A stretch of DNA of 64,000 nt, taken from the NCBI GenBank assembly GCA_946546945.1, contig CAMNOU010000015.1:1-64000 (forward strand), read 5' to 3'. The DNA is from an uncultured Lachnospiraceae bacterium. Lineage in GTDB: Bacteria; Bacillota; Clostridia; Lachnospirales; Lachnospiraceae. Under the pieces are notes generated by a model. It had not been told where the DNA came from, searched no databases, and worked only from the letters and a program-made list of their open reading frames with translations. This document shows, in pieces, positions 14,813-56,760 of the stretch. Position numbers and translations under genes: made by a program. Each line of letters starts with the position of its first letter. Positions within the stretch are counted from its first letter, which is position 1.

Positions 14813-15415
14813 TCATGACTGCGACGATGAAGATCCCGCCGACGCTGCCGCATTTTCCCTGTCCCGGATCATATGCTGCAGCGTAACGAGAATTGCGACC
14901 ACCGTTTCTTCCGATTCCGGTTTGTAGATATCGACACAATACTTATCATGCATGGAAATCATCTTCTGCGCAATGACAGCAATGATACAGTCGTTCCGGT
15001 CATACAACTCAAAATTCAGTCCCAGAATATTTCCTCTGAGCTGCCATCCCAGTTCTTTAATATTCGTAATGTCTTTCACAATATGAAACAGCTCATTCGA
15101 AAGTTCAAATTTCGTTCCGTCTGCCATGGTAATCATGTGCTTTTCATGCAGCGTGACCAGTTTTTTCTCAATATGAGCAACCTGAGCCCCCGCCGCAGTA
15201 AAGATATCCGTTTTATCATGGATAGACGGAAAATTTGTCTTCACCCGGTACACAACATTGTCCATGTTATCCGTAATCTCAATCCTGTGGTGAAGCGTCA
15301 TCACTTTTGTGCTTGTAAACAGCGACCTGGCCGGTTCACCAAACCGGGCCACATTATTCACATTTGCCGACTCTCCCTTTTCACGGTAACGATGAATCTT
15401 TGAAAATACTCCCAT
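14813..15415 (-). CDS. LURP-one-related / YxjI family protein
   Basis: A 200-residue protein of the LURP-one-related (tubby-C-terminal-like beta barrel) family: repeated beta strands such as HHRIEITDNMDNVVYRVKTNFPSIHDKTDIFTAAG and QLRGNILGLNFELYDRN. Function in bacteria is unknown; phospholipid scrambling or membrane binding is proposed for relatives. A Ser-rich C-terminus (SAGSSSSQS) follows. Its stop is 8 bp from the convergent MTHFR gene. The left 33-bp direct repeat that bounds the CRISPR-Cas block is 22 bp upstream of its start. Confidence 0.75.
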   Translation of the reverse strand: MGVFSKIHRYREKGESANVNNVARFGEPARSLFTSTKVMTLHHRIEITDNMDNVVYRVKTNFPSIHDKTDIFTAAGAQVAHIEKKLVTLHEKHMITMADGTKFELSNELFHIVKDITNIKELGWQLRGNILGLNFELYDRNDCIIAVIAQKMISMHDKYCVDIYKPESEETVVAILVTLQHMIRDRENAAASAGSSSSQS

Positions 15416-15436
15416 AGAAGAATCCCTCCTTCGTTT

Positions 15437-15469
15437 TCCTAAGATGTTTTTATGATATCATAGATTATC
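15437..15469. repeat. left copy of 33-bp direct repeat bounding the CRISPR-Cas block
   Basis: Identical over 33 bases to 23380-23412 (begins TCCTAAGATGTTTTTATG, ends TAGATTATC). It contains the perfect palindrome TATGATATCATA. Flanking bases diverge immediately on both sides. Confidence 0.9.
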
Positions 15470-15493
15470 CTGATATAATAATCACCTTATGGA

Positions 15494-16911
15494 AGTTATC
15501 AATCCTTATAAATTACATTACTCTCAAACCCTTTACGGAGTAGCCCTGTAGGACGGCGAATTTGACTATCCTTATGAATTACATTGCTCTCAAACAAGTG
15601 ATGTTGAGTTAGCCAGAAAGACCAGTTTGACTATCCTTATGAATTACATTGCTCTCAAACCGAATGCCATGAACTCCGGAAGGGAGGTTGGTTTGACTAT
15701 CCTTATGAATTACATTGCTCTCAAACACATCCGAAGCAGTAATATGAATCTTGATAGTTTGACTATCCTTATGAATTACATTGCTCTCAAACTACCAGAA
15801 TTAAATCTTAGAAGGATCAGTGAGTTTGACTATCCTTATGAATTACATTGCTCTCAAACAAGAGTCACGCCCTTGAACACCCAGATATAGTTTGACTATC
15901 CTTATGAATTACATTGCTCTCAAACAAGATTCATGACCTGACGGCGGATCAGTTAGTTTGACTATCCTTATGAATTACATTGCTCTCAAACGCCTATGGA
16001 TGTGAAGGCTCCACAGATAAGTTTGACTATCCTTATGAATTACATTGCTCTCAAACGTAAATTTCTGTTTGCAGTACAACGAGTTAGTTTGACTATCCTT
16101 ATGAATTACATTGCTCTCAAACTGAATGTGACCAATGAGAAGCTGACGAAAGGTTTGACTATCCTTATGAATTACATTGCTCTCAAACTGATCTGAATAC
16201 CGCTTATCAATATGTAATGTTTGACTATCCTTATGAATTACATTGCTCTCAAACTACGATGTGATTTCTACTGTCTGGGAAGCAGTTTGACTATCCTTAT
16301 GAATTACATTGCTCTCAAACCGTCCCATCATCGTTTTCGCCAATGGCGATGTTTGACTATCCTTATGAATTACATTGCTCTCAAACGTTGACTGTTTTTG
16401 TAAGCTTGGAAATCGAGTTTGACTATCCTTATGAATTACATTGCTCTCAAACACTGGTCTGTCGTCTTCTGACGAATCATCGTTTGACTATCCTTATGAA
16501 TTACATTGCTCTCAAACAGGCGCGGGAACTGCCAGAACGACACCTGAGTTTGACTATCCTTATGAATTACATTGCTCTCAAACGTTGTTGAGATCATTAA
16601 GCACTGGTCAGAAGTTTGACTATCCTTATGAATTACATTGCTCTCAAACCAAATAATCCCTGGTTTACAACATACGACGGTTTGACTATCCTTATGAATT
16701 ACATTGCTCTCAAACGCGCCGTCCGGAACTGTCGTTTCGTCATAGTTTGACTATCCTTATGAATTACATTGCTCTCAAACGCCTCTCCAACGTAGTACAC
16801 TTATAAGGAGTTTGACTATCCTTATGAATTACATTGCTCTCAAACCGGATCGGCGTTGAGCTTGCCAGCCATTAAGTTTGACTATCCTTATGAATTACAT
16901 TGCTCTCAAAC
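15494..16911 (-). CRISPR. type II-A CRISPR array, 22 repeats, 21 spacers
   Basis: A 36-bp repeat (plus strand starts GTTTGACTATCC and ends TTGCTCTCAAAC) recurs with 29-31-bp spacers from 15560 to 16911, about every 66 bp. On the minus strand it reads GTTTGAGAGCAATG..., the usual II-A crRNA orientation, so transcription runs leftward from the csn2 side. The copy at 15560 has one changed base. A further degenerate copy at 15494-15529, with about seven mismatches, marks the old (trailer) end. All other repeats are identical, which fits a recently active array. I saw no spacer that matches another part of this window, but could not search exhaustively. Confidence 0.97.
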
Positions 16912-16969
16912 CCCAAATCATAATTCAAGGAAAGTGCTTGCAACACTGAACAATATAATTCTCTTAATT
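16912..16969 (-). promoter_or_regulatory. CRISPR leader
   Basis: The 58 bp between the csn2 stop and the first repeat, AT-rich and non-coding, is the leader (minus strand). It ends TTATGATTTGGG at the repeat junction; TTGCAA and TATGAT with a 15-bp gap are possible, poorly spaced promoter elements. New spacers would enter here. Confidence 0.7.
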
Positions 16970-17638
16970 CTAGCATGAAATTTCACACAAATCACTATCT
17001 ATTATATAACATTTTTCATTGCTAAGATGTACATGTTCGCAATTCTCTATCGTTAAAACATGATACTTATGACGTAAAATTGTATCAAAAAAAAGTTCTG
17101 CTTCTTCATCGTCAATAAAACTTCTGAAATTTAACAAAATGAACAATTTTTCTTTGTCATATTCTCGAACCAGTTCAAAATAATCTATTATTTTTTCTCC
17201 CAGGCTTTCATAATCTTCATTAAACCCCAGTCCAAATGCTTTCACCAAGGCATCCAGAGTAATCTTTTGGAAATAAATGTCTCCAGCTAGGTTTACCGAT
17301 TGTTTAAGCAAAAATGATTCCACCTCAGCTAGGATAGCCATTGTCTTCTCATACTCATTTTCAATGGCTTGGTTAACAAGCGAAGTAGCAGCTCTTGTTA
17401 ATAGCATTTTTTTATTGATTTTAAAAGGGAAAAAGTCTGTTAACCCCTCAACGTTCTTTTCAATAGGTATTGCTTTCTCCTCTTTTGAAACAACCGCATC
17501 TCCATCATAACCATCTATTTGTCCAACGATATCACTGATCATTTTTGTGAGTAATTTTTGATTTTCAACCACTATGGTATTTACTCTGTCTATTTCAGTA
17601 TTAAACACCTGGTTGATTCCGGGATAAACAAACTTCAT
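16970..17638 (-). CDS. csn2: type II-A CRISPR adaptation protein Csn2
   Basis: A 222-residue ring-forming, DNA-end-binding protein that assists Cas1-Cas2 during spacer acquisition and marks the system as subtype II-A. The start MKFVYPGINQVFNTE, the degenerate ATPase-like core and the C-terminal LLNFRSFIDDEEAELFF...LTIENC are typical. Its ATG overlaps the cas2 TGA (ATGA). It is AT-rich like the rest of the cas block. Confidence 0.92.
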   Translation of the reverse strand: MKFVYPGINQVFNTEIDRVNTIVVENQKLLTKMISDIVGQIDGYDGDAVVSKEEKAIPIEKNVEGLTDFFPFKINKKMLLTRAATSLVNQAIENEYEKTMAILAEVESFLLKQSVNLAGDIYFQKITLDALVKAFGLGFNEDYESLGEKIIDYFELVREYDKEKLFILLNFRSFIDDEEAELFFDTILRHKYHVLTIENCEHVHLSNEKCYIIDSDLCEISC

Positions 17639-17958
17639 ATAATCACCAACTTTTCGGGACTATCAATAATATCACTTTTCCTTTTCCCAATAATAAAATC
17701 CATTTTTGCATATTGCTTCTCAGTCACAATTAGTGTTTGCACTAAACCATCAGGTGGTTTATTAGTGCTCAGCAAATGCTTCACGGAGTTTTCTACTGAT
17801 GGTGTAGTAAGCAATTTACAGTATACAGACTCCTGCAACATAATAAATCCATTTTTTATAAGAAGCTTTCTAAATGCACGATAATTTTTCTTGTCTTCAT
17901 TTGTGATAGTAGGCAAATCAAAAAACACTAACATTCTCATAAATCTTAGACTACTCAT
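17635..17958 (-). CDS. cas2: CRISPR-associated endonuclease Cas2
   Basis: A 107-residue ferredoxin-fold protein, partner of Cas1 in the spacer integrase. The characteristic first strand MRMLVFFDLP with its Asp is present; length is normal for II-A Cas2. The ribosome site is weak (AAGAAATT), and the alternative ATG at 17940 would keep the conserved strand intact. A multi-hairpin repeat of about 125 bp separates it from cas1, an unusual break in an otherwise overlapping operon. Confidence 0.93.
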   Translation of the reverse strand: MSSLRFMRMLVFFDLPTITNEDKKNYRAFRKLLIKNGFIMLQESVYCKLLTTPSVENSVKHLLSTNKPPDGLVQTLIVTEKQYAKMDFIIGKRKSDIIDSPEKLVII

Positions 17959-17979
17959 AATTTCTTATTCTTTAAGTTC

Positions 17980-18104
17980 AAGTCTCGCTCCAGCTAGACT
18001 TGATGCGGGATTCGGGTTTATTTCAGCGGACATCATTTAAATCCGAATCCCGGTACATCCTAGCGGAGCCTGTATCAAATGGGAGTCATCTCCCATCTGA
18101 TATA
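17980..18104. repeat. multi-hairpin intergenic repeat, copy D (inside the cas operon)
   Basis: Three hairpins in a row: AAGTCT/AGACTT arms at 17980-18001; GGGATTCGG (18007-18015) with CCGAATCCC (18043-18051); and TATCA...GGGAG/CTCCC...TGATA at about 18073-18102. The last hairpin contains the cas1 stop codon (18086-18088). It matches copies near 32.85, 42.05 and 54.75 kb in order and arm sequence. Confidence 0.7.
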
Positions 18105-18970
18105 AAATAATAAAATTTCAATAACGCTATATCTGAATCATTAATTGCATCAAATACACTGCGGGTATATATTTTAATTGCATTCCTTACAGATTGTTTT
18201 TTCGAATCGATATACACAGTATCTTCTAAAATCCCCCAAAGTGAATGCTTTTCTTCTTTCGAAAAATCTTCTATCTGCATTCCTACAACTGCTCGATCAA
18301 CAATAATACGAAACGGTTCCATCAAATCACTTCCGAGATTAAAATGATTAAACATATTGTCATGAAATATCCCCAACTGAGTAAGGTAACCATTTGCGGT
18401 AATCTCTCGGTTAAATACAGACAATATTAAACTATACCCATAGTTTAAAGCAGCATTGACCGGCGTTTCTGAGCTTCTCGTAAAGTGCATCCCAAATAAT
18501 GCATTAAAATATACTTTTGCAGCATGTCCTTCTCGATTAGTGGAATCAAGTCGCTCCACCTGCCCAATATATGAGTCTAGCAATGCAGCTTCTTCTTCCT
18601 TGCAGAGATTCTCTAAAAACTCCTTTTGCTTTCGTATCTTTTCTGTCACAATTTCCTGCCAGACAATAGCCTTGATATCATTCGACCAGCCAAATTGGGA
18701 ACGGATTTTAGCAGAACTGTCATGGCTTCCGTGATGAGAAACCAATTCCGCACATGGGTTATGTTTTGAATCGCAAAATATAACTTTAACTTTTTTCTCT
18801 ACCAATGCTTCAATTAAGCATCCTGTGAGAGCCACTGCAGGATTCTCAAGCAGAAGAACAGATATTTCATCTATTAAAATCCGCTTTGTTTCTGTCCCTC
18901 TGACAACCACATATCCCATTTTATAATCAAGTTTTGCCTGTGAACTTATAATTACAGTCCTCCAACTCAT
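18086..18970 (-). CDS. cas1: CRISPR-associated endonuclease Cas1
   Basis: A 294-residue metal-dependent integrase that inserts new spacers with Cas2. Start MSWRTVIISSQAKLDYKMGYVVVRG and the conserved NREGHAAKVYFNALFG (metal-binding Glu in the helical domain), NYGYSLIL, and GIFHDNMFNHFNLGSDLMEPFR (His and Glu ligands) are all present, so it looks active. It overlaps the cas9 stop by four bases (ATGA). Its last codons and TGA come from the intergenic hairpin repeat, which suggests the repeat landed at the 3' end and replaced the original C-terminal residues. Confidence 0.95.
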   Translation of the reverse strand: MSWRTVIISSQAKLDYKMGYVVVRGTETKRILIDEISVLLLENPAVALTGCLIEALVEKKVKVIFCDSKHNPCAELVSHHGSHDSSAKIRSQFGWSNDIKAIVWQEIVTEKIRKQKEFLENLCKEEEAALLDSYIGQVERLDSTNREGHAAKVYFNALFGMHFTRSSETPVNAALNYGYSLILSVFNREITANGYLTQLGIFHDNMFNHFNLGSDLMEPFRIIVDRAVVGMQIEDFSKEEKHSLWGILEDTVYIDSKKQSVRNAIKIYTRSVFDAINDSDIALLKFYYFISDGR

Positions 18971-21204
18971 AACAGACTCAATATATTATCAGACTGCTTC
19001 ATCCATAATCCGGACGAAGATTGATCTATAATTCGGATATCTTTATATTGTTTCCTCCAGTTAGAGACATTAGCGCTAAAACTTATCGTTGCGGCAGCTT
19101 TAGGGGCACCGCCTATTAGTTTTAAATCACAACCGCCAGCCACTCTGCCAAATGTCATATGAATATTAAGTAATGCTTTCGCTTGTTTTTTTATATCCAA
19201 TGACAGAAACAATTCTCTTCCACTTAATAATGTTTGCAGTGGTTTGTTTATACGCTTTGCATAAATAGATCTTTCATATTTCTCTATATAGAGATCATAT
19301 AATGCTATATTATTCTCTTTAGAAACATGATCAAAAGATTCATCGTACAAATATTTGGGATTCTTATCACATTTCTCGACAAACTTCTCTATTTTCTTCA
19401 AATAATATTGCCACTCTCCTTTAGCAGAAAACTGCATCACAGGCTGTGCTATTAAACACTTTCCTCCACTGCTTATTCCTGCAATACAAACACGAAATCC
19501 ATCTAAAGACAACATTGTGTTTACTTTCCACGGCCGCATTCCCATTGGAAATTCTACGCGCTCAACCTGCTTTCCAAATATTTTTTTTAATCGTATTTTC
19601 GCATATTTCACGGCAAAATCTGTGTCAGAAAGAAATTGATCGCCATATAACATTTCAACCGACATGATACATATATCTGTTTTTTTCCCGGTTTCATATC
19701 TAACTGGAATGTAAAACATGGCACTGGCCTTATTGTAGCCACCGTATCGTTCTGTATCCAATCCTTTCTTCAAAGGAATCAAACCCTTTGCTGCCGGCAG
19801 CGGCATTTGATCGAACAGTCCTCCTCTTTTGAAAAATGCATATTTTGTGAAATGAGCATTGTTTTTTACTGCAATTTTTTTCACTTTCTGCAGTGTCTGC
19901 TGACCATCCCACACCACTATACCATTACATACCTGCTTCCGAGTAAAAAGCGTTTCTGTCTTAATGCTATATTTGCCAGTCACATCAAACCAAGGCTTGG
20001 TAAATTTCATATTGTATACATTCCCTGTAACAATATTCAAATATGCATCTACTGCATGATGCAGGTCATTAAACAATCTGGATTTTGGAATATCGAATAT
20101 TTGCCGGAATTCAGAAACTAACCGCGCTTTACTATATATAATTTCTGTATTCTGATATTTCTCTTTTAATATGGCTGCTATTGCCTTAACAGAATGGGAT
20201 GTTTCTGTAAGCTGACGGTTAATAAATCCCATCTTTTCATCTGGCATAAATGGTGTACTTCGAGTCAGTCGCTTGTACTTTTCTTCACTGATAAAGGATT
20301 TTTCTTTTAAAAAGTGCCAATATCCACCCATTTTATTTCGGATAGATGCATCAATAGGGTATACGTCTTGTTTTTTCCCGTTCACTTCCGAGAGACATAA
20401 TACTTTATTATTAATAATACTATCGTCTTTTACATACGCTTGCGGGTAAATATGATCAATATCATATGCTTTCGAAAACAGTTGCTCTAACTCAATTGTG
20501 CGTCCAGTGTACATACATTTACCAAGTTGCATATAGTAAAGAAAAAGTTTATCGCTCTGTAGACGATTATCGGCATAATCTCCCATAGCATCAATCTGTG
20601 CAGTCAATGCTCTGACGTCTTCTTCACAAGTGCTATATAAATCCAGTATTTGCTGTTTCCTGGTTTTTGTTCGTCTTCCTTTCTGATCTGGATCTGCTCC
20701 CCTGGTTGTCTCCACAAATATTTTTTTCGGTTCGCCAAAGGCTTTTACCACATCTTTCACAATATCCAGAGTCCTGTAAACCGGACGCTTTACAGCATTC
20801 GACACATACATATCATTCATACGATCCTCTAACGTAACAGGATGCTCTGCATAATACTCGTGCGAAAATGATTCTATCTCCTGCCTGAACGTAAACCGGC
20901 CTGAAAGCAATTCCATTAAGTTATTCTGTGTTTTCCATAAAGCATCAATTATAGAATATACTTCTCCTGTCTCTATATCCGCTCCTTCTATTTCAGTGAG
21001 GAATCGTCTCGACAAACGCCCAAAATCTTTAAACTTTAACTTACAAATATATCTTTGATCATCCTCACTTAAATGCGGATATGTGAGTTTAAGCCATCTG
21101 TGAAGCCGTGTTTTGTCCTCTGCATAAGAAGATCTCTCAATAATTGTTTCGACATCTTTCTCTGACAGGACACCTTTTGATAATAAATTCTTAAAGGATA
21201 CCAT
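18967..21204 (-). CDS. cas9: Cas9, C-terminal part (HNH, RuvC-III, PI domain), out of frame with N-terminal part
   Basis: Carries the rest of a type II-A Cas9: RuvC-II Glu in IFVETTRGADPD, the HNH nuclease (KCMYTGRTIE...YDIDHIYPQ, catalytic His in DIDH), RuvC-III HHAVDA and a C-terminal PAM-interacting region. The first ATG at 21204 has no ribosome site, and the homologous frame continues upstream to about 21319, so this is not an independent gene. Its frame joins the N-terminal part by a -1 shift at the A7 run. All nuclease residues look intact. Confidence 0.9.
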   Translation of the reverse strand: MVSFKNLLSKGVLSEKDVETIIERSSYAEDKTRLHRWLKLTYPHLSEDDQRYICKLKFKDFGRLSRRFLTEIEGADIETGEVYSIIDALWKTQNNLMELLSGRFTFRQEIESFSHEYYAEHPVTLEDRMNDMYVSNAVKRPVYRTLDIVKDVVKAFGEPKKIFVETTRGADPDQKGRRTKTRKQQILDLYSTCEEDVRALTAQIDAMGDYADNRLQSDKLFLYYMQLGKCMYTGRTIELEQLFSKAYDIDHIYPQAYVKDDSIINNKVLCLSEVNGKKQDVYPIDASIRNKMGGYWHFLKEKSFISEEKYKRLTRSTPFMPDEKMGFINRQLTETSHSVKAIAAILKEKYQNTEIIYSKARLVSEFRQIFDIPKSRLFNDLHHAVDAYLNIVTGNVYNMKFTKPWFDVTGKYSIKTETLFTRKQVCNGIVVWDGQQTLQKVKKIAVKNNAHFTKYAFFKRGGLFDQMPLPAAKGLIPLKKGLDTERYGGYNKASAMFYIPVRYETGKKTDICIMSVEMLYGDQFLSDTDFAVKYAKIRLKKIFGKQVERVEFPMGMRPWKVNTMLSLDGFRVCIAGISSGGKCLIAQPVMQFSAKGEWQYYLKKIEKFVEKCDKNPKYLYDESFDHVSKENNIALYDLYIEKYERSIYAKRINKPLQTLLSGRELFLSLDIKKQAKALLNIHMTFGRVAGGCDLKLIGGAPKAAATISFSANVSNWRKQYKDIRIIDQSSSGLWMKQSDNILSLL

Positions 21205-21284
21205 AGGGGCAAGATTTGAATGTATATTATCGTCAATTCCACCCAGTGTTTCCTCATTCCCTTTTTTTATATATCCATTACTAA

Positions 21285-23030
21285 TCAGGTAATCTGTAAG
21301 TGTTCTCCTGGTAATTTTTTTCTGTTAAGGAAAACATTATTATAAATTTCCTGCTTCAATTCTACAGATATGCGAACGCCTTCTATTCGTATATTATTGA
21401 TTTCATTTAATACCATGTAGCGATGATATAACAGTGAGTCTTTGGGCAATACTGGTTCCCCGGGTAAATAAGAACACTGATTTGTCATCCGTTGTATAAA
21501 TGCCTGTTCACTCGCGTCAAAGTCCACTATCTTTTCAAAATTCCATGGAAATATTTTCTCATTTTTCCGCACTAGCCATGCATTATTTGAATTACGATTC
21601 AATGGTCCGACAAAATAAGGAACACGAAACATAAATATAGATAAAATTTTTTCATGAACAGTCAGCCCATCTCTATCCTTTTCATTAAGAAATGGTAAAT
21701 AATTTGCACAAGTATTTAATAATTGATTTAATTCATGCCAATATAATTGATAAGGAATTACTCGATTATCAGTATTTTTCTGTTTGGGAAGAAATGTGCA
21801 GTTTTTTAAACGCTCACACATATCCGCATAAGCATACTGATCATTTATATCAGGTGTAATATTTTTTACAATTGCTTCCATCTTCTTGGAAAAAACTTCT
21901 ATATCAGCTTTCTTTATTAATGATGTATCTTTTCCATCTACATGATAAGAATATGCCACATAATTATCTTTCTCATTCGGATTCCGAAATACTTCATTAT
22001 ATTTATCCGGTAAGTATTTTTTTATCATATGTTTCAATGTGGCTAAGTCACTCTTATGCTGTTCATATATAGCAACCTTTGCCTCAGAAATAGTATCAGC
22101 TGTTCCAATCACATCGACTAACAAAGCCCAGTCAGAAACTGCTCGAAGTGCAAGAATTAGTTCACTGTCATCTCCAATGCCAGAAAGAACCTCATTCATT
22201 TTGTCGTCATCCATTCGTAAAGAAACAGAACCAATCTCATCATATTCTTCTTTTCCAAAAACATCTTTCAGTTTACAGCTTCCACCTGCAAGCAATTTAA
22301 CTATGCTTATGCGACTGAAAGGAAAGCTCTCTGTGTTTTCTCTAGATGGCTTGCTCTCTCCGTACAACTCTTTTGTCAATAATTTTGTCTTTTCATTTAC
22401 ACCAATATGCTTTTTAAGCGCAATTGAAAGTTTCGAAAGATCGGGAGATTCCCAAGGAGCATCGTATCCATTTTCTTTGAAATAATTCATCAGCGAATTA
22501 TATACAGACTCAAAATCTTTAATCGCAGAAAGATTTTCTTTTTGGATATTGCTGAAAAAATGACCTCTGTGAGACACAAGCCAGCTACATGCCAAATAAA
22601 CCAAACGTATATCGTGAGCTTTAGAATTTCTCATTAACTCCACAATAAGATGATGGATGGTTGGATACTTTTTATAATAGTCTTTATCAGTGAATTCAGA
22701 ATCATTAAAAAACACAAAAGCATCCCCTGCCTCATCTCTATAAAGACGGCTTTCTTGTAGACGAACGAAGAATTTCGGGTCCACTTTTGCAATCTCCTCG
22801 GCAAAAAGGCTCTGTAAAAAAGAAATCCTTTGTTTCTTTCGATCTAATCTGCGGCGTGCGGAACGAAACGAACGTCTTTCATCACAAAGACTTGCCGCAT
22901 CAAAAATAGTTACCCCCCAAGCTGGTTCACCATAAAATTTTATCAAATTATACTCTTCATCTGTAACAGCATAACCAACAGAATCTGTCCCAATATCTAA
23001 CCCCAAATAATAATCTTTTGTTTTTCCCAT
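21285..23030 (-). CDS. cas9: Cas9, N-terminal part (RuvC-I, bridge helix, REC), frameshifted
   Basis: First 581 residues of a type II-A Cas9. RuvC-I with catalytic Asp is LGLDIGTDSVGYAV; the Arg-rich bridge helix RRSFRSARRRLDRKKQRISFLQ follows, then the REC lobe (SWLVSHRGHFF). The ATG at 23030 (MGKTKDYYLG) is preferred to an upstream in-frame ATG that lies in the tracrRNA region. It terminates early because the run of A at 21315-21321 has seven instead of the eight bases needed; with one more A the full protein would be about 1354 residues, a normal II-A size. Confidence 0.92.
   Translation of the reverse strand: MGKTKDYYLGLDIGTDSVGYAVTDEEYNLIKFYGEPAWGVTIFDAASLCDERRSFRSARRRLDRKKQRISFLQSLFAEEIAKVDPKFFVRLQESRLYRDEAGDAFVFFNDSEFTDKDYYKKYPTIHHLIVELMRNSKAHDIRLVYLACSWLVSHRGHFFSNIQKENLSAIKDFESVYNSLMNYFKENGYDAPWESPDLSKLSIALKKHIGVNEKTKLLTKELYGESKPSRENTESFPFSRISIVKLLAGGSCKLKDVFGKEEYDEIGSVSLRMDDDKMNEVLSGIGDDSELILALRAVSDWALLVDVIGTADTISEAKVAIYEQHKSDLATLKHMIKKYLPDKYNEVFRNPNEKDNYVAYSYHVDGKDTSLIKKADIEVFSKKMEAIVKNITPDINDQYAYADMCERLKNCTFLPKQKNTDNRVIPYQLYWHELNQLLNTCANYLPFLNEKDRDGLTVHEKILSIFMFRVPYFVGPLNRNSNNAWLVRKNEKIFPWNFEKIVDFDASEQAFIQRMTNQCSYLPGEPVLPKDSLLYHRYMVLNEINNIRIEGVRISVELKQEIYNNVFLNRKKLPGEHLQIT
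21315..21321 (-). other. cas9 frameshift site, A7 slippery heptamer
   Basis: On the coding strand the codons read aga-aaa-aaa-tta, so A_AAA_AAA sits in the X_XXY_YYZ phase of a -1 ribosomal frameshift signal. A -1 slip, or RNA polymerase adding one A, restores the homologous frame (ATT ACC AGG AGA ...). A mutation or a homopolymer sequencing error explains it equally well. Confidence 0.85.
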
Positions 23031-23057
23031 ATAGACATTCCCTTCCAATTGTGTTAT

Positions 23058-23165
23058 TATAATTAACGAATTACATTGCGAGTTCAAATAAAAGTTAAAC
23101 TCAAATCGTTGGTTTATCCAACTGCACAGAGAGTGCAAAAAGACTTCATCATTGAAGTCTTTTTC
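23058..23165 (+). ncRNA. tracrRNA (with promoter -10) of the II-A system
   Basis: A -10 TATAAT is at 23058-23063. From about 23068 the RNA has an anti-repeat, GAATTACATTGC then TCAAAT, complementary to the 5' half of the crRNA repeat with an internal bulge like that of streptococcal guides. Hairpins follow: GTTGG/CCAAC, TGCAC/GTGCA and the terminator AAAAAGACTTC (23137-23147) with GAAGTCTTTTT (23154-23164). It is transcribed away from cas9, as is common in II-A loci; mature length is about 97 nt. Confidence 0.9.
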
Positions 23166-23233
23166 TTTATAGATAAATCTTCCAACAATTCGTTCAAGTT
23201 ATATTATAATCGATTCTTTCATAAAGTCAACTT

Positions 23234-23261
23234 CATGGTGTCGTTCCTAGCCGACACCATG
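23234..23261. repeat. perfect hairpin upstream of tracrRNA/cas9 region
   Basis: CATGGTGTCG and CGACACCATG, ten-base perfect arms around an eight-base loop. No T-tract. The stretch 23166-23379 otherwise shows no coding frame and no recognised signal. Confidence 0.55.
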
Positions 23262-23379
23262 GCAAATATGCCATTTTCTTTTTCTAATTTTCTCGACAGT
23301 TGCATAATAAACTGCTTTTGAAACTCTGTTTAAAAATCTCTCGTTTACTACTTGACCCTATATTTCTGCAAAATACTTA

Positions 23380-23412
23380 TCCTAAGATGTTTTTATGATA
23401 TCATAGATTATC
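23380..23412. repeat. right copy of 33-bp direct repeat bounding the CRISPR-Cas block
   Basis: Same 33 bases and same orientation as 15437-15469. It lies 7-8 bp upstream of the ECF-type promoter of the sigma factor gene, so it may be the ancestral chromosomal copy. Confidence 0.9.
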
Positions 23413-23419
23413 ATCATTT

Positions 23420-23448
23420 TGTAACCTTTTCCCTTTCCGGATCGTGTT
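23420..23448 (+). promoter_or_regulatory. ECF-type promoter of the sigma factor operon
   Basis: TGTAACC at 23420-23426, 16 bp, then CGTGTT at 23443-23448: the AAC/CGT signature of promoters used by extracytoplasmic sigma factors. It probably makes the sigma gene autoregulated. Confidence 0.6.
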
Positions 23449-23493
23449 ATAAGTGAAAGGCCTTTTAATAAAGAGAAAGCAGGGGATCCCGAC

Positions 23494-23976
23494 ATGAGAA
23501 TCGCAACAGAGATTCTGATAGAAAAATACCGCGACAACCTCTTCGCAGCCGCTTTTCATATCTGTAAAAACCAGGCGGACGCAGAGGATGTTCTGCAGGA
23601 CACCTTCCTGCTGTATCATCTGTCAGAAAAAGAATTTAAAAATGAGCAGCACATCCGCGCATGGCTGTTCCGGGTGGTAATCAACAAATCAAAAGATGTT
23701 GTCAGGTCCTTCTGGAGACGAAACAGGATTTCCCTGGAGGACTACATGCAGACGCTGACCTTCGGGACACCGGAGTCCAGAGACCTGTTCTCCACGGTCA
23801 TGGATCTTCCGGAAAAGTACCGTATCGTCATACACTTATTTTATTATGAGGATTACAGCATCCGGGAAATTGCAGAAATCATGAATCTGTCCGAAAACAA
23901 TGTCAAGGTCAGGTTATCGCGGGGGCGAAAATTGCTCAAAGAAAAACTGAAGGAGGGATGGAACGATGACGAATAA
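23494..23976 (+). CDS. RNA polymerase sigma factor, ECF subfamily
   Basis: A 160-residue sigma-70 family factor with region 2 at about 15-80 (NLFAAAFHICKNQADAEDVLQDTFLLYHL, AWLFRVVINKSKD) and region 4 at about 105-155 (LPEKYRIVIHLFYYEDYSIREIAEIMNLSENNVKVRLSRGRKLLK). No region 3, hence ECF. It overlaps the next gene by 11 bases; that gene encodes a membrane protein with anti-sigma layout. The signal sensed is unknown. Confidence 0.92.
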   Translation: MRIATEILIEKYRDNLFAAAFHICKNQADAEDVLQDTFLLYHLSEKEFKNEQHIRAWLFRVVINKSKDVVRSFWRRNRISLEDYMQTLTFGTPESRDLFSTVMDLPEKYRIVIHLFYYEDYSIREIAEIMNLSENNVKVRLSRGRKLLKEKLKEGWNDDE

Positions 23977-24559
23977 GGAAAGGTATAAACAGGCATTTAA
24001 CGCGCTTCATGCCTCCGGTCCTATTTCATTGGAGGCGAATGATATGAAAAAGAGAAGAAGATATATTCCGAAAAGCGCAGTGGCCGCCTGCACGGCAGCC
24101 GCAGTCATCATCGGCAGTTTCGGTGCCGCTTATGCTGCAAACGTGGGAGGTATTCAACGAACTATTCAGATTTGGATTCACGGCAAACAGACAACAGCCG
24201 AGCTCACCGTCTCAGACCAGGGACGTTACAGCATGACCTACGAAAACGAAGATGGTGAAACAATTGAACAGGGAGGCGGCGGAATCGCCATTGATTCTTT
24301 CGGAAAAGAAAGACCTCTGACAGAAGAAGAAATTATGGAAAATATGAACACTCCGGATGTTTCCTTCGAAGACGACGGCCGTGTCCTTGTTTCCTATATG
24401 GACCAGCAGCTTGATATCACAGACAAATTTGATGAAGAAGGCTTCTGTTATGTGGAATTGCATGCACAGGGCGAGACCACATACCTGACCGTCAATCATG
24501 CAAACGGGCATTTCGCCTGGAGCAAGAATCATTATATTCAGCCGAAGGAGTTTAAGTAG
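23966..24559 (+). CDS. putative membrane anti-sigma / sigma-associated protein
   Basis: A 197-residue single-pass membrane protein: short cytosolic N-terminus (about 1-35, with KKRRRY), one membrane helix (about 36-60, SAVAACTAAAVIIGSFGAAYAA) and an extracytoplasmic domain rich in acidic residues and Gly. I do not recognise the outer domain. Position and translational overlap with an ECF sigma factor are the case for an anti-sigma role; the cytosolic part is too short for a classic zinc anti-sigma domain and lacks HxxxCxxC. Confidence 0.65.
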   Translation: MTNKERYKQAFNALHASGPISLEANDMKKRRRYIPKSAVAACTAAAVIIGSFGAAYAANVGGIQRTIQIWIHGKQTTAELTVSDQGRYSMTYENEDGETIEQGGGGIAIDSFGKERPLTEEEIMENMNTPDVSFEDDGRVLVSYMDQQLDITDKFDEEGFCYVELHAQGETTYLTVNHANGHFAWSKNHYIQPKEFK

Positions 24560-54245: not shown

Positions 54246-54704
54246 ATGCGTTTCCGACGGAAAATAATTGAGTATTCCAGAGGGAATAATCTGCAAGGAT
54301 TCTGGCGTTTTTACCGGCTGCAAAAGGCAGCGAAACATCTGTACTCCCGTAACATTTTTACATTCCTGATGAGCCGTTCGGCCCACCGGCACGGCGGATA
54401 TGTCGGCCCGGATACGGTTTTTCAGGACATCCCAACTCTCCCCCACGGGCTGCACGGCATTTTCATTTCCCGCTATGCCGTGATTGGGAAGAATTGCTGG
54501 ATTTACCAGAATGTGACGATTGGAGAAGTGAACCGGAAAGCGCCCGTAATCGGCGACGGCTGTATCATTGGAGCCGGCGCGGTCATTGTCGGGGATATCC
54601 GGATCGGCAGCAATGTGAAAATCGGTGCCGGGGCTGTTGTCAGCACCGATATTGCAGAAGGCTGTACGGTTGTAGCACAGCCGCCTCGCATCATCTCAGT
54701 GTGA
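54246..54704 (+). CDS. serine acetyltransferase-like hexapeptide-repeat protein
   Basis: A 152-residue left-handed beta-helix protein similar to the C-terminal half of CysE: LPHGLHGIFISRYAVIGKNCWIYQNVTIGE, APVIGDGCIIGAGAVIVGDI. It lacks the N-terminal CysE helical domain. In this cluster it may supply or modify serine for the D-Ser branch, an inference. Its last codons and TGA (54702-54704) lie inside hairpin repeat copy B, which seems to have trimmed the original C-terminus. Confidence 0.8.
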   Translation: MRFRRKIIEYSRGNNLQGFWRFYRLQKAAKHLYSRNIFTFLMSRSAHRHGGYVGPDTVFQDIPTLPHGLHGIFISRYAVIGKNCWIYQNVTIGEVNRKAPVIGDGCIIGAGAVIVGDIRIGSNVKIGAGAVVSTDIAEGCTVVAQPPRIISV

Positions 54705-54812
54705 GAGACCCCCACTGAGATAAACGCTCCGCGAGGATGCGCAGGAATTCGGTTTGGAAGATGTCAGCTGACGCTGACCCGAATTCCGCGCCAAGTCTCG
54801 CGAGCGAGACTT
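54692..54812. repeat. multi-hairpin intergenic repeat, copy B
   Basis: Hairpins in order: ATCTCAGTG/CACTGAGAT (54692-54727, identical to copy A reversed); GGAATTCGG (54744-54752) with CCGAATTCC (54779-54787), enclosing GTCAGCTGAC; AAGTCTCG/CGAGACTT (54793-54812, as in copy C). It fills the gap between the acetyltransferase and racemase genes and ends 21 bp before the racemase ATG. Confidence 0.85.
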
Positions 54813-54833
54813 GAAAAGAAAGAAGGGACCCAT

Positions 54834-56414: not shown

Positions 56415-56760
56415 TTTGACACGTATGGGGGATGGCGTCATACGTGGCATTTCTTGAAATTAGCTTCTTTGACACGTACAGAGGATGGCATCGTACGTGG
56501 CATTTCTTGAAATTAGCTTCTTTGACATGTACGGAGGATGGCATCGTACGTGGCATTTCTTGAAATTAGCTTCTTTGACACGTACGGAGAATGGCGTCGT
56601 ACGTGGCATTTCTTTATTTTCGCTTCTTTGACACGTATGGAGGATGGCGTCGTACGTGGCATTTCTTTATTTTCGCTTCTTTGACACGTATGGAGGGTGG
56701 CATCGTACGTGGCATTTCTTGAAATTAGCTTCTTTGACATGTACGAAAGATGCCGCCGCA
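56415..56760. repeat. tandem 53-bp hairpin repeat array, six full units plus one partial
   Basis: Units start at 56415, 56468, 56521, 56574, 56627 and 56680, with a partial one at 56733. Each begins TTTGACACGTACGGAGG, contains arms CACGTACG and CGTACGTG around an 11-base loop, and ends either GAAATTAGCTTC or TATTTTCGCTTC. Stem changes are paired in unit 1 (CACGTATG with CATACGTG) and mostly wobble-compatible elsewhere, so structure is conserved. 53 bp is not a multiple of three, so it is non-coding. No unique spacers, so it is not a CRISPR. Confidence 0.9.

Follow-up and report, generated by a model that had tools for sequence, protein, structure and literature searches.

A type II-A CRISPR-Cas locus framed by identical 33-bp direct repeats in an uncultured Lachnospiraceae bacterium: a plausible but unproven case of mobility

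The spread of small stand-alone CRISPR-Cas loci between chromosomes has mostly been inferred from gene trees. Among the described systems closest to the locus studied here are genomic islands of Vibrio (GI-24, VPI-6 and others), in which CRISPR-Cas lies within attL and attR and several of which are lower in GC than their host; as described in parts of PMC6360697, VPI-6 is stated to be excised whole, and the GI-24 island is termed excisable in a section heading. A second class is that of the CIMEs, defined in parts of PMC5704250 as elements without integration and transfer genes that have kept both att sites, and direct repeats of 8-60 bp, a range covering 33 bp, are given there for elements that use tyrosine recombinases.

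Our locus resembles the Vibrio islands in that CRISPR-Cas sits in a unit bounded by direct repeats and of lower GC, and the CIMEs in that att-like ends are kept without the unit's own integration and transfer genes. It differs from the islands, which in those parts of PMC6360697 are 18-63 kb long, usually have an integrase and often have island-free strains, whereas here a CRISPR module stands alone and neither an integrase nor an empty site was found; that source names type II systems of the II-B kind, while ours is II-A. CIMEs, in the corresponding parts of PMC5704250, are decayed ICEs or IMEs in tandem with integrase-bringing elements, whereas we found neither such a relative nor a tandem arrangement. 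Of the hallmarks of an island or CIME, att-like direct repeats are present at both ends, and an integrase, or a related integrase element with the same site, was not found. A literature search at title and abstract level, which is no proof of absence, did not find a II-A locus standing alone between att-like repeats, and as far as it showed, a bare II-A module as a whole unit would be new.

The locus lies in a window of 64,000 nucleotides, the whole stretch of DNA analysed. Read from left to right, a LURP-one-related gene (14813..15415, minus strand; PF04525, 3.6e-11) is followed by 21 bp, repeat copy 1 (15437..15469), 24 bp, a degenerate last CRISPR repeat and 21 further repeats, so that the array (15494..16911; minus strand assumed as for the cas genes) holds 22 copies of a 36-bp repeat, the degenerate terminal one beside copy 1 included. 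Next come csn2 (16970..17638, minus; TIGR01866, 4.4e-42), cas2 (17635..17958, minus; TIGR01573, 5.5e-19), a member (17977..18107, plus, right end approximate) of a dispersed family of structured hairpin repeats, which overlaps the 3' end of cas1, cas1 itself (18086..18970, minus; TIGR03639, 1e-90) and cas9 in two minus-strand frames. The second of these frames (18967..21204) encodes the C-terminal part, with the end of REC, HNH, RuvC and the PAM-interacting domain, and the first (21285..23138) the N-terminal part, with the bridge helix and REC; the latter is listed from a TTG, its likely start being the ATG at 23030. At the right end a probable tracrRNA (23060..23170, plus, ends approximate), about 210 bp, copy 2 (23380..23412) and 81 bp lead to an ECF-type sigma factor gene (23494..23976, plus) with sigma-70 regions 2 and 4. 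The identity and divergent arrangement of the two neighbours, proposed in an earlier sequence-only reading of the window, are borne out by Pfam matches on both, and both are open reading frames.

With cas9, cas1, cas2 and csn2 beside an array, the genes being assigned by NCBIfam and Pfam matches, the locus is type II-A. It has the cas9-cas1-cas2-csn2 order, the 36-bp repeats and the anti-repeat beside cas9 of that type, and departs from its usual form in the two frames of cas9, the hairpin repeat between cas1 and cas2 and the 33-bp frame. It had been called complete, a label that needs qualifying as regards cas9; the absence of a single intact cas9 frame affects intactness, not type membership. 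The overlap of the frames (21285-21330) holds a seven-base homopolymer, and the break may be a sequencing error at this homopolymer, a pseudogene or a case of slippage. In the other 30 of 31 genomes matched, the corresponding part of cas9 belongs to one longer reading frame of 1046-1406 aa, versus 785 aa here; among four further relatives, cas9 is interrupted by a stop in one (G678). The duplex of CRISPR repeat and anti-repeat is predicted at -22.8 kcal/mol on the plus strand (windows starting at 23040-23050), against -17.0 kcal/mol on the minus strand; judging by duplex energy and by a fold in which hairpins and then a T run come after the anti-repeat, 23060..23170 is a probable tracrRNA, a candidate for which Rfam gave no match. 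Between it and copy 2, at 23237-23285, two hairpins recognised by eye precede a T-rich stretch, and the second of them is listed as terminator-like by a scan. Comparison of the array with phages gave no match.

The 33-mer TCCTAAGATGTTTTTATGATATCATAGATTATC was found again as exact copies at both ends of the locus, in the same orientation, as had been reported. In the assembly (2,767,452 bases, or 2.77 Mb, in 65 contigs, 92% complete) these are the only two copies with up to three mismatches allowed, so that a genome-wide search, which had been proposed as a check, revealed no scattered copies. Chance is excluded as the origin of the match, the longest word common to simulated flanks (14870-15493 and 23139-24138; 1000 first-order Markov trials) being 15 bases compared with the 33 observed. 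The flanks had been said to diverge at once; they do so on the right, but on the left three extra bases with one mismatch extend the likeness to 35 of 36. Both copies do lie just outside the module, copy 1 lying 24 bp past the degenerate end of the array and preceding the start codon of the LURP-one gene by 21 bp, and copy 2 lying about 210 bp past the probable tracrRNA, some 350 bp upstream of the likely cas9 start and 81 bp upstream of the ECF-sigma start codon. When the outer flanks are joined over one 33-mer, an ordinary 135-bp region between two divergent genes results (length counted from coordinates), and the site therefore reads as undamaged. A TGTAACC element, promoter-like and taken by us to be an ECF promoter, begins at the eighth base right of copy 2, ahead of the ECF-sigma gene; GTAACC likewise occurs upstream of homologous genes in two other loci (L004 and L005).

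Taken together, these features point to one insertion of the CRISPR-Cas locus at this spot as the best reading, its mobility being plausible but unproven. The 7.9-kb locus would have arrived as one unit at a place where a 33-bp sequence already lay between the LURP-one and ECF-sigma genes, and exchange between this resident sequence and its twin on a circular form of the unit would have left one copy at each end. The likeliest agent would be a site-specific recombinase of the tyrosine type, its gene no longer present at this place, and the unit would be either a remnant of the CIME kind or a passenger that was mobilised in trans. What is observed is a pair of repeats unique in the assembly, the boundaries of the unit and a step in GC; from these we infer the insertion, the circular form, the recombinase and the direction of the event, and we hold this course of events tentatively, at slightly less than an even chance. 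It is favoured by a perfect pair far beyond chance, by its position at the very edges of the module with an ordinary intergenic region remaining when the flanks are joined, by GC steps of 0.49 / 0.36 / 0.50 and by a repeat length within the 8-60 bp range given in the cited part of PMC5704250.

Insertion at one site with target duplication was the proposal of the sequence-only reading. Its first half fits the anatomy, because a unique perfect repeat lies outside the module, the flanking genes are open, there is a GC step and the contig has no PF00589 match. A duplication of the kind made by DDE transposons is unlikely, since such target-site duplications measure about 2-15 bp, well short of 33 bp, and since terminal inverted repeats are lacking, the two ends not being linked by any of the 22 inverted pairs listed. 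The view that the locus contains no integrase or transposase agrees with the scans: PF00589 (tyrosine recombinase) has no match on the window's contig (C15), and no recombinase or transposase family was met among the 28 of 60 window ORFs (at least 100 aa) scanned with Pfam, which is also the scope for serine recombinases. It counts in favour of site-specific exchange that tyrosine recombinases are encoded elsewhere in the genome, with six PF00589 matches on four contigs (C11, C19, C44 and C53), but none of these has the 33-mer beside it, because both copies lie in this window. It speaks further against such exchange that the 33-mer lies neither in a tRNA nor at the end of a gene, where insertion usually takes place; a tRNA as target was rejected, as the window has none. 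A Firmicutes dif consensus matched no site in any of 21 genomes at three mismatches, and thus is no yardstick.

The lack of a recombinase in the unit and of inverted ends, together with a 33-mer not found elsewhere and related cas loci without such repeats, would also suit a one-off insertion that was not site-specific. A staggered break or short homology, by crossover with a circle or by break repair with fill-in, would then have duplicated 33 bp, and the repeats would be a scar rather than the ends of a mobile unit. However, the boundaries hug the module on both sides, the copies are perfectly identical despite signs of age, and in break repair duplications as long as 33 bp are unusual; we consider this origin somewhat unlikely, though a strong rival to site-specific exchange. 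The unit's own Cas1-Cas2 integrase could be imagined to have inserted it while duplicating about one repeat length, but for this there is a coincidence of length only (35 of 36 bp alike, against a 36-bp CRISPR repeat). Cas1-Cas2 joins short prespacers, the ends have no common inverted repeat and no related locus with usable flanks shows such an arrangement, leaving this idea with next to no probability.

It may also be asked whether there was an insertion at all. The 33-mer contains the palindrome TATGATATCATA as well as, read by eye, -10-like hexamers, and both copies lie in the same orientation upstream of minus-strand genes (21 bp from LURP-one and about 350 bp from cas9). The sequence could therefore be a promoter or operator with TATGATATCATA, used twice leftward into LURP-one and the cas operon and kept by selection, which would account for perfect identity despite age signs elsewhere. 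Against such a regulatory role, the assembly holds just two copies, the core occurs in none of 60 relatives, and the copies stand at both ends of the GC step; moreover, the promoter scan lists no leftward promoter in either 33-mer but places a good candidate for the cas operon (11/12 matches) at 23230-23203, inside the unit. We regard this explanation as quite improbable.

The enclosed 7.9 kb had been described as more AT-rich than its neighbours, and it is: its GC content is 0.358, whereas the adjoining 5 kb have 0.492 on the left and 0.497 on the right (0.36 against 0.49-0.50). Among 17 loci tabulated (window included) the contrast on both sides is the largest. In 16 of these 17 loci the GC content of the cas region is below that of the left flank, and in 14 of 17 it is below that of either flank (window included in both counts); the cas regions of L111 and L113 likewise fall below both flanks. 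Since low GC is common in related cas loci, it carries little information on recency, and AT-richness as proof of recent arrival was rejected. GC skew along the window, which is weak evidence on the question of a dif site here, shows no lasting switch: up to 24 kb it is negative, from there to about 38 kb it is mixed, and beyond that it returns to negative values.

The age of the locus bears on how its identical ends are to be understood. The gap between cas1 and cas2 is 130 bp (between alignment ends), compared with 1-40 bp in the 29 other loci where both genes occur. This additional DNA is the copy of the dispersed hairpin repeat at 17977. This repeat has 49 matches in its own genome (itself included, some partial), with a second window copy at 54693-54824 and other copies catalogued as L122-L135 and L138-L156, and it occurs in 7 of 61 genomes, all of one family. 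It is strongly structured and about 90-130 bp long, begins with TTCAA and comprises two hairpins that are conserved and a third, on the 3' side, that varies; a comparison of 20 selected copies showed that 9 of the 30 pairs predicted have changed on both sides with pairing kept. Rfam gave no match to it in the window at gathering score, and for the copy at 17977 none up to E = 1. Nine of 13 copies checked are free of overlap with an ORF (at least 100 aa) and four overlap one, and the repeat may be an RNA or REP-like or MITE-like. Several copies of other genomes lie near contig starts. Elsewhere in the window, at 56456-56740, there is a cluster of short direct repeats, with 20-mers recurring at spacings of 53-212 bp.

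In a selection of 31 hairpin copies (17 from the own genome and 14 from six others), the copy at 17977 is nearest to one own-genome copy (0.871 over the core), the next nearest being those of G029 (0.804 and 0.793), level with other own-genome copies (0.793 and lower); an origin in the own lineage is thus suggested by one near copy. From its nearest relative the copy differs at 11 of 91 positions, with three of 32 pairs broken and four turned to wobbles. The CRISPR-Cas locus is probably ageing, and it looks older than its perfect repeats suggest, and as if it had spent some time in this lineage, because cas9 is split and the hairpin repeat has lost base pairs. If the hairpin copy was intact at its insertion, its changes came afterwards, and equally old neutral 33-mers should therefore differ: at 5% divergence per copy, about 3.5% of pairs are computed to stay identical. 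Such signs of age fit badly with site-specific exchange that left 33 perfectly matched neutral bases. The placement here may be younger than the inner hairpin repeat, the unit having moved within the lineage, or the 33-mers may have been kept alike by selection or exchange. The former would be the case if a minimal, integrase-free II-A module moved as a unit through 33-bp core sites with a recombinase from another element, a recent move within the lineage leaving the ends identical and the interior ageing, a scenario that we judge unlikely.

An empty site with one 33-mer would favour insertion by exchange, and it was not found in the related genomes searched, which come from collections with one genome per species and thus include no conspecific. 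The exact 33-mer had no copy in genome_contigs or viral_contigs (the window's own genome possibly being outside both), and its 24-bp core, with up to three mismatches, was present in one of 61 genomes, its own, and absent from 60 related ones. Nor did a search at three mismatches detect the 33-mer in 19 further genomes of its genus. The search in phages that had been called for was run, and phage and plasmid collections returned weak pieces of the 33-mer only (best E about 1). Carriage of the locus by plasmids was rejected, Cas1 matching two plasmid records at E <= 1e-40, at most 40.5% identical. With the own genome counted, homologues of the LURP-one gene were matched in 12 genomes of one set of 61 and in 93 of another of 397, the five best others being 51-74% identical, and ECF homologues in 52 of 61 (own included). 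By tblastn, the two genes occurred together in none of eight loci of about 3-4 kb each (the five best LURP-one loci and three ECF loci, the latter from two relatives and one paralogue in the own genome), and the stretch nearest to the 33-mer in these loci had at least 12 mismatches.

Related cas loci were sought with the Cas9 C-terminal part in 397 family genomes and 392 order genomes, which are samples of larger groups with some genomes in both. The closest relative, L111, is only about 61% identical in this part and thus there is no near copy of the unit among the genomes searched; a separate search for related loci with this Cas9 part confirmed no relative. Of 34 related cas loci, 19 were usable (at least 1 kb on both sides of the cas9-to-array region), ten had too short a flank and five had been left out beforehand, four (L083, L101, L103 and L104) having no full locus on the contig and one (L112) flanks of at most 150 bp; in L097 the array was not detected and the csn2 end served as boundary. 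Exact repeats between left and right flanks reach 18 bp in L087, while in the other 18 loci the longest measures 10-15 bp (at most 14 bp in L111), against 33 bp in the window. Mismatch-tolerant comparison of the nearer flanks in 16 of the 19 usable loci and L076 (L097, L111 and L113 excluded) extended the L087 repeat, in genome G125, to 32 of 34 alike; one copy there precedes cas9 by about 525 bp, and the other follows the array at a distance of 249 bp. The matches in L088 (29/33) and L078 (19/20), directly beside the array and 87-139 bp before cas9, are apparent pairings of CRISPR repeat with anti-repeat.

The repeat in L087 is terminator-like, with a hairpin plus T run seen by eye, and its presence at both ends of a cas locus raises the question of whether the 33-mer is a common intergenic repeat, terminator-like or dispersed, that flanks the locus on both sides by coincidence. 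This is very improbable, as no terminator is listed by the scan in the window's 33-mers and the assembly has no third copy.

With such matches of CRISPR repeat to anti-repeat set aside, comparable flanking repeats are absent in 18 of the 19 usable loci, and flanking att-like repeats are therefore not general to this CRISPR lineage, as far as these loci represent it. Relatives with cas genes but no such repeats were what the sequence-only reading would have counted against mobility. They were found in part, in 18 of 19 cases, but the closest of them is only about 61% identical, and the comparison lowers the mobility reading. A locus framed by identical, genome-unique repeats nevertheless constitutes a concrete, testable exchange site, and if the frame is a scar instead, neat flanking repeats and a GC step would be insufficient to call a defence locus mobile. 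Among the related loci, in L075 (G255) a partial csn2 match and an array come straight after cas9, with cas1 and cas2 unmatched, an apparent loss of the adaptation pair.
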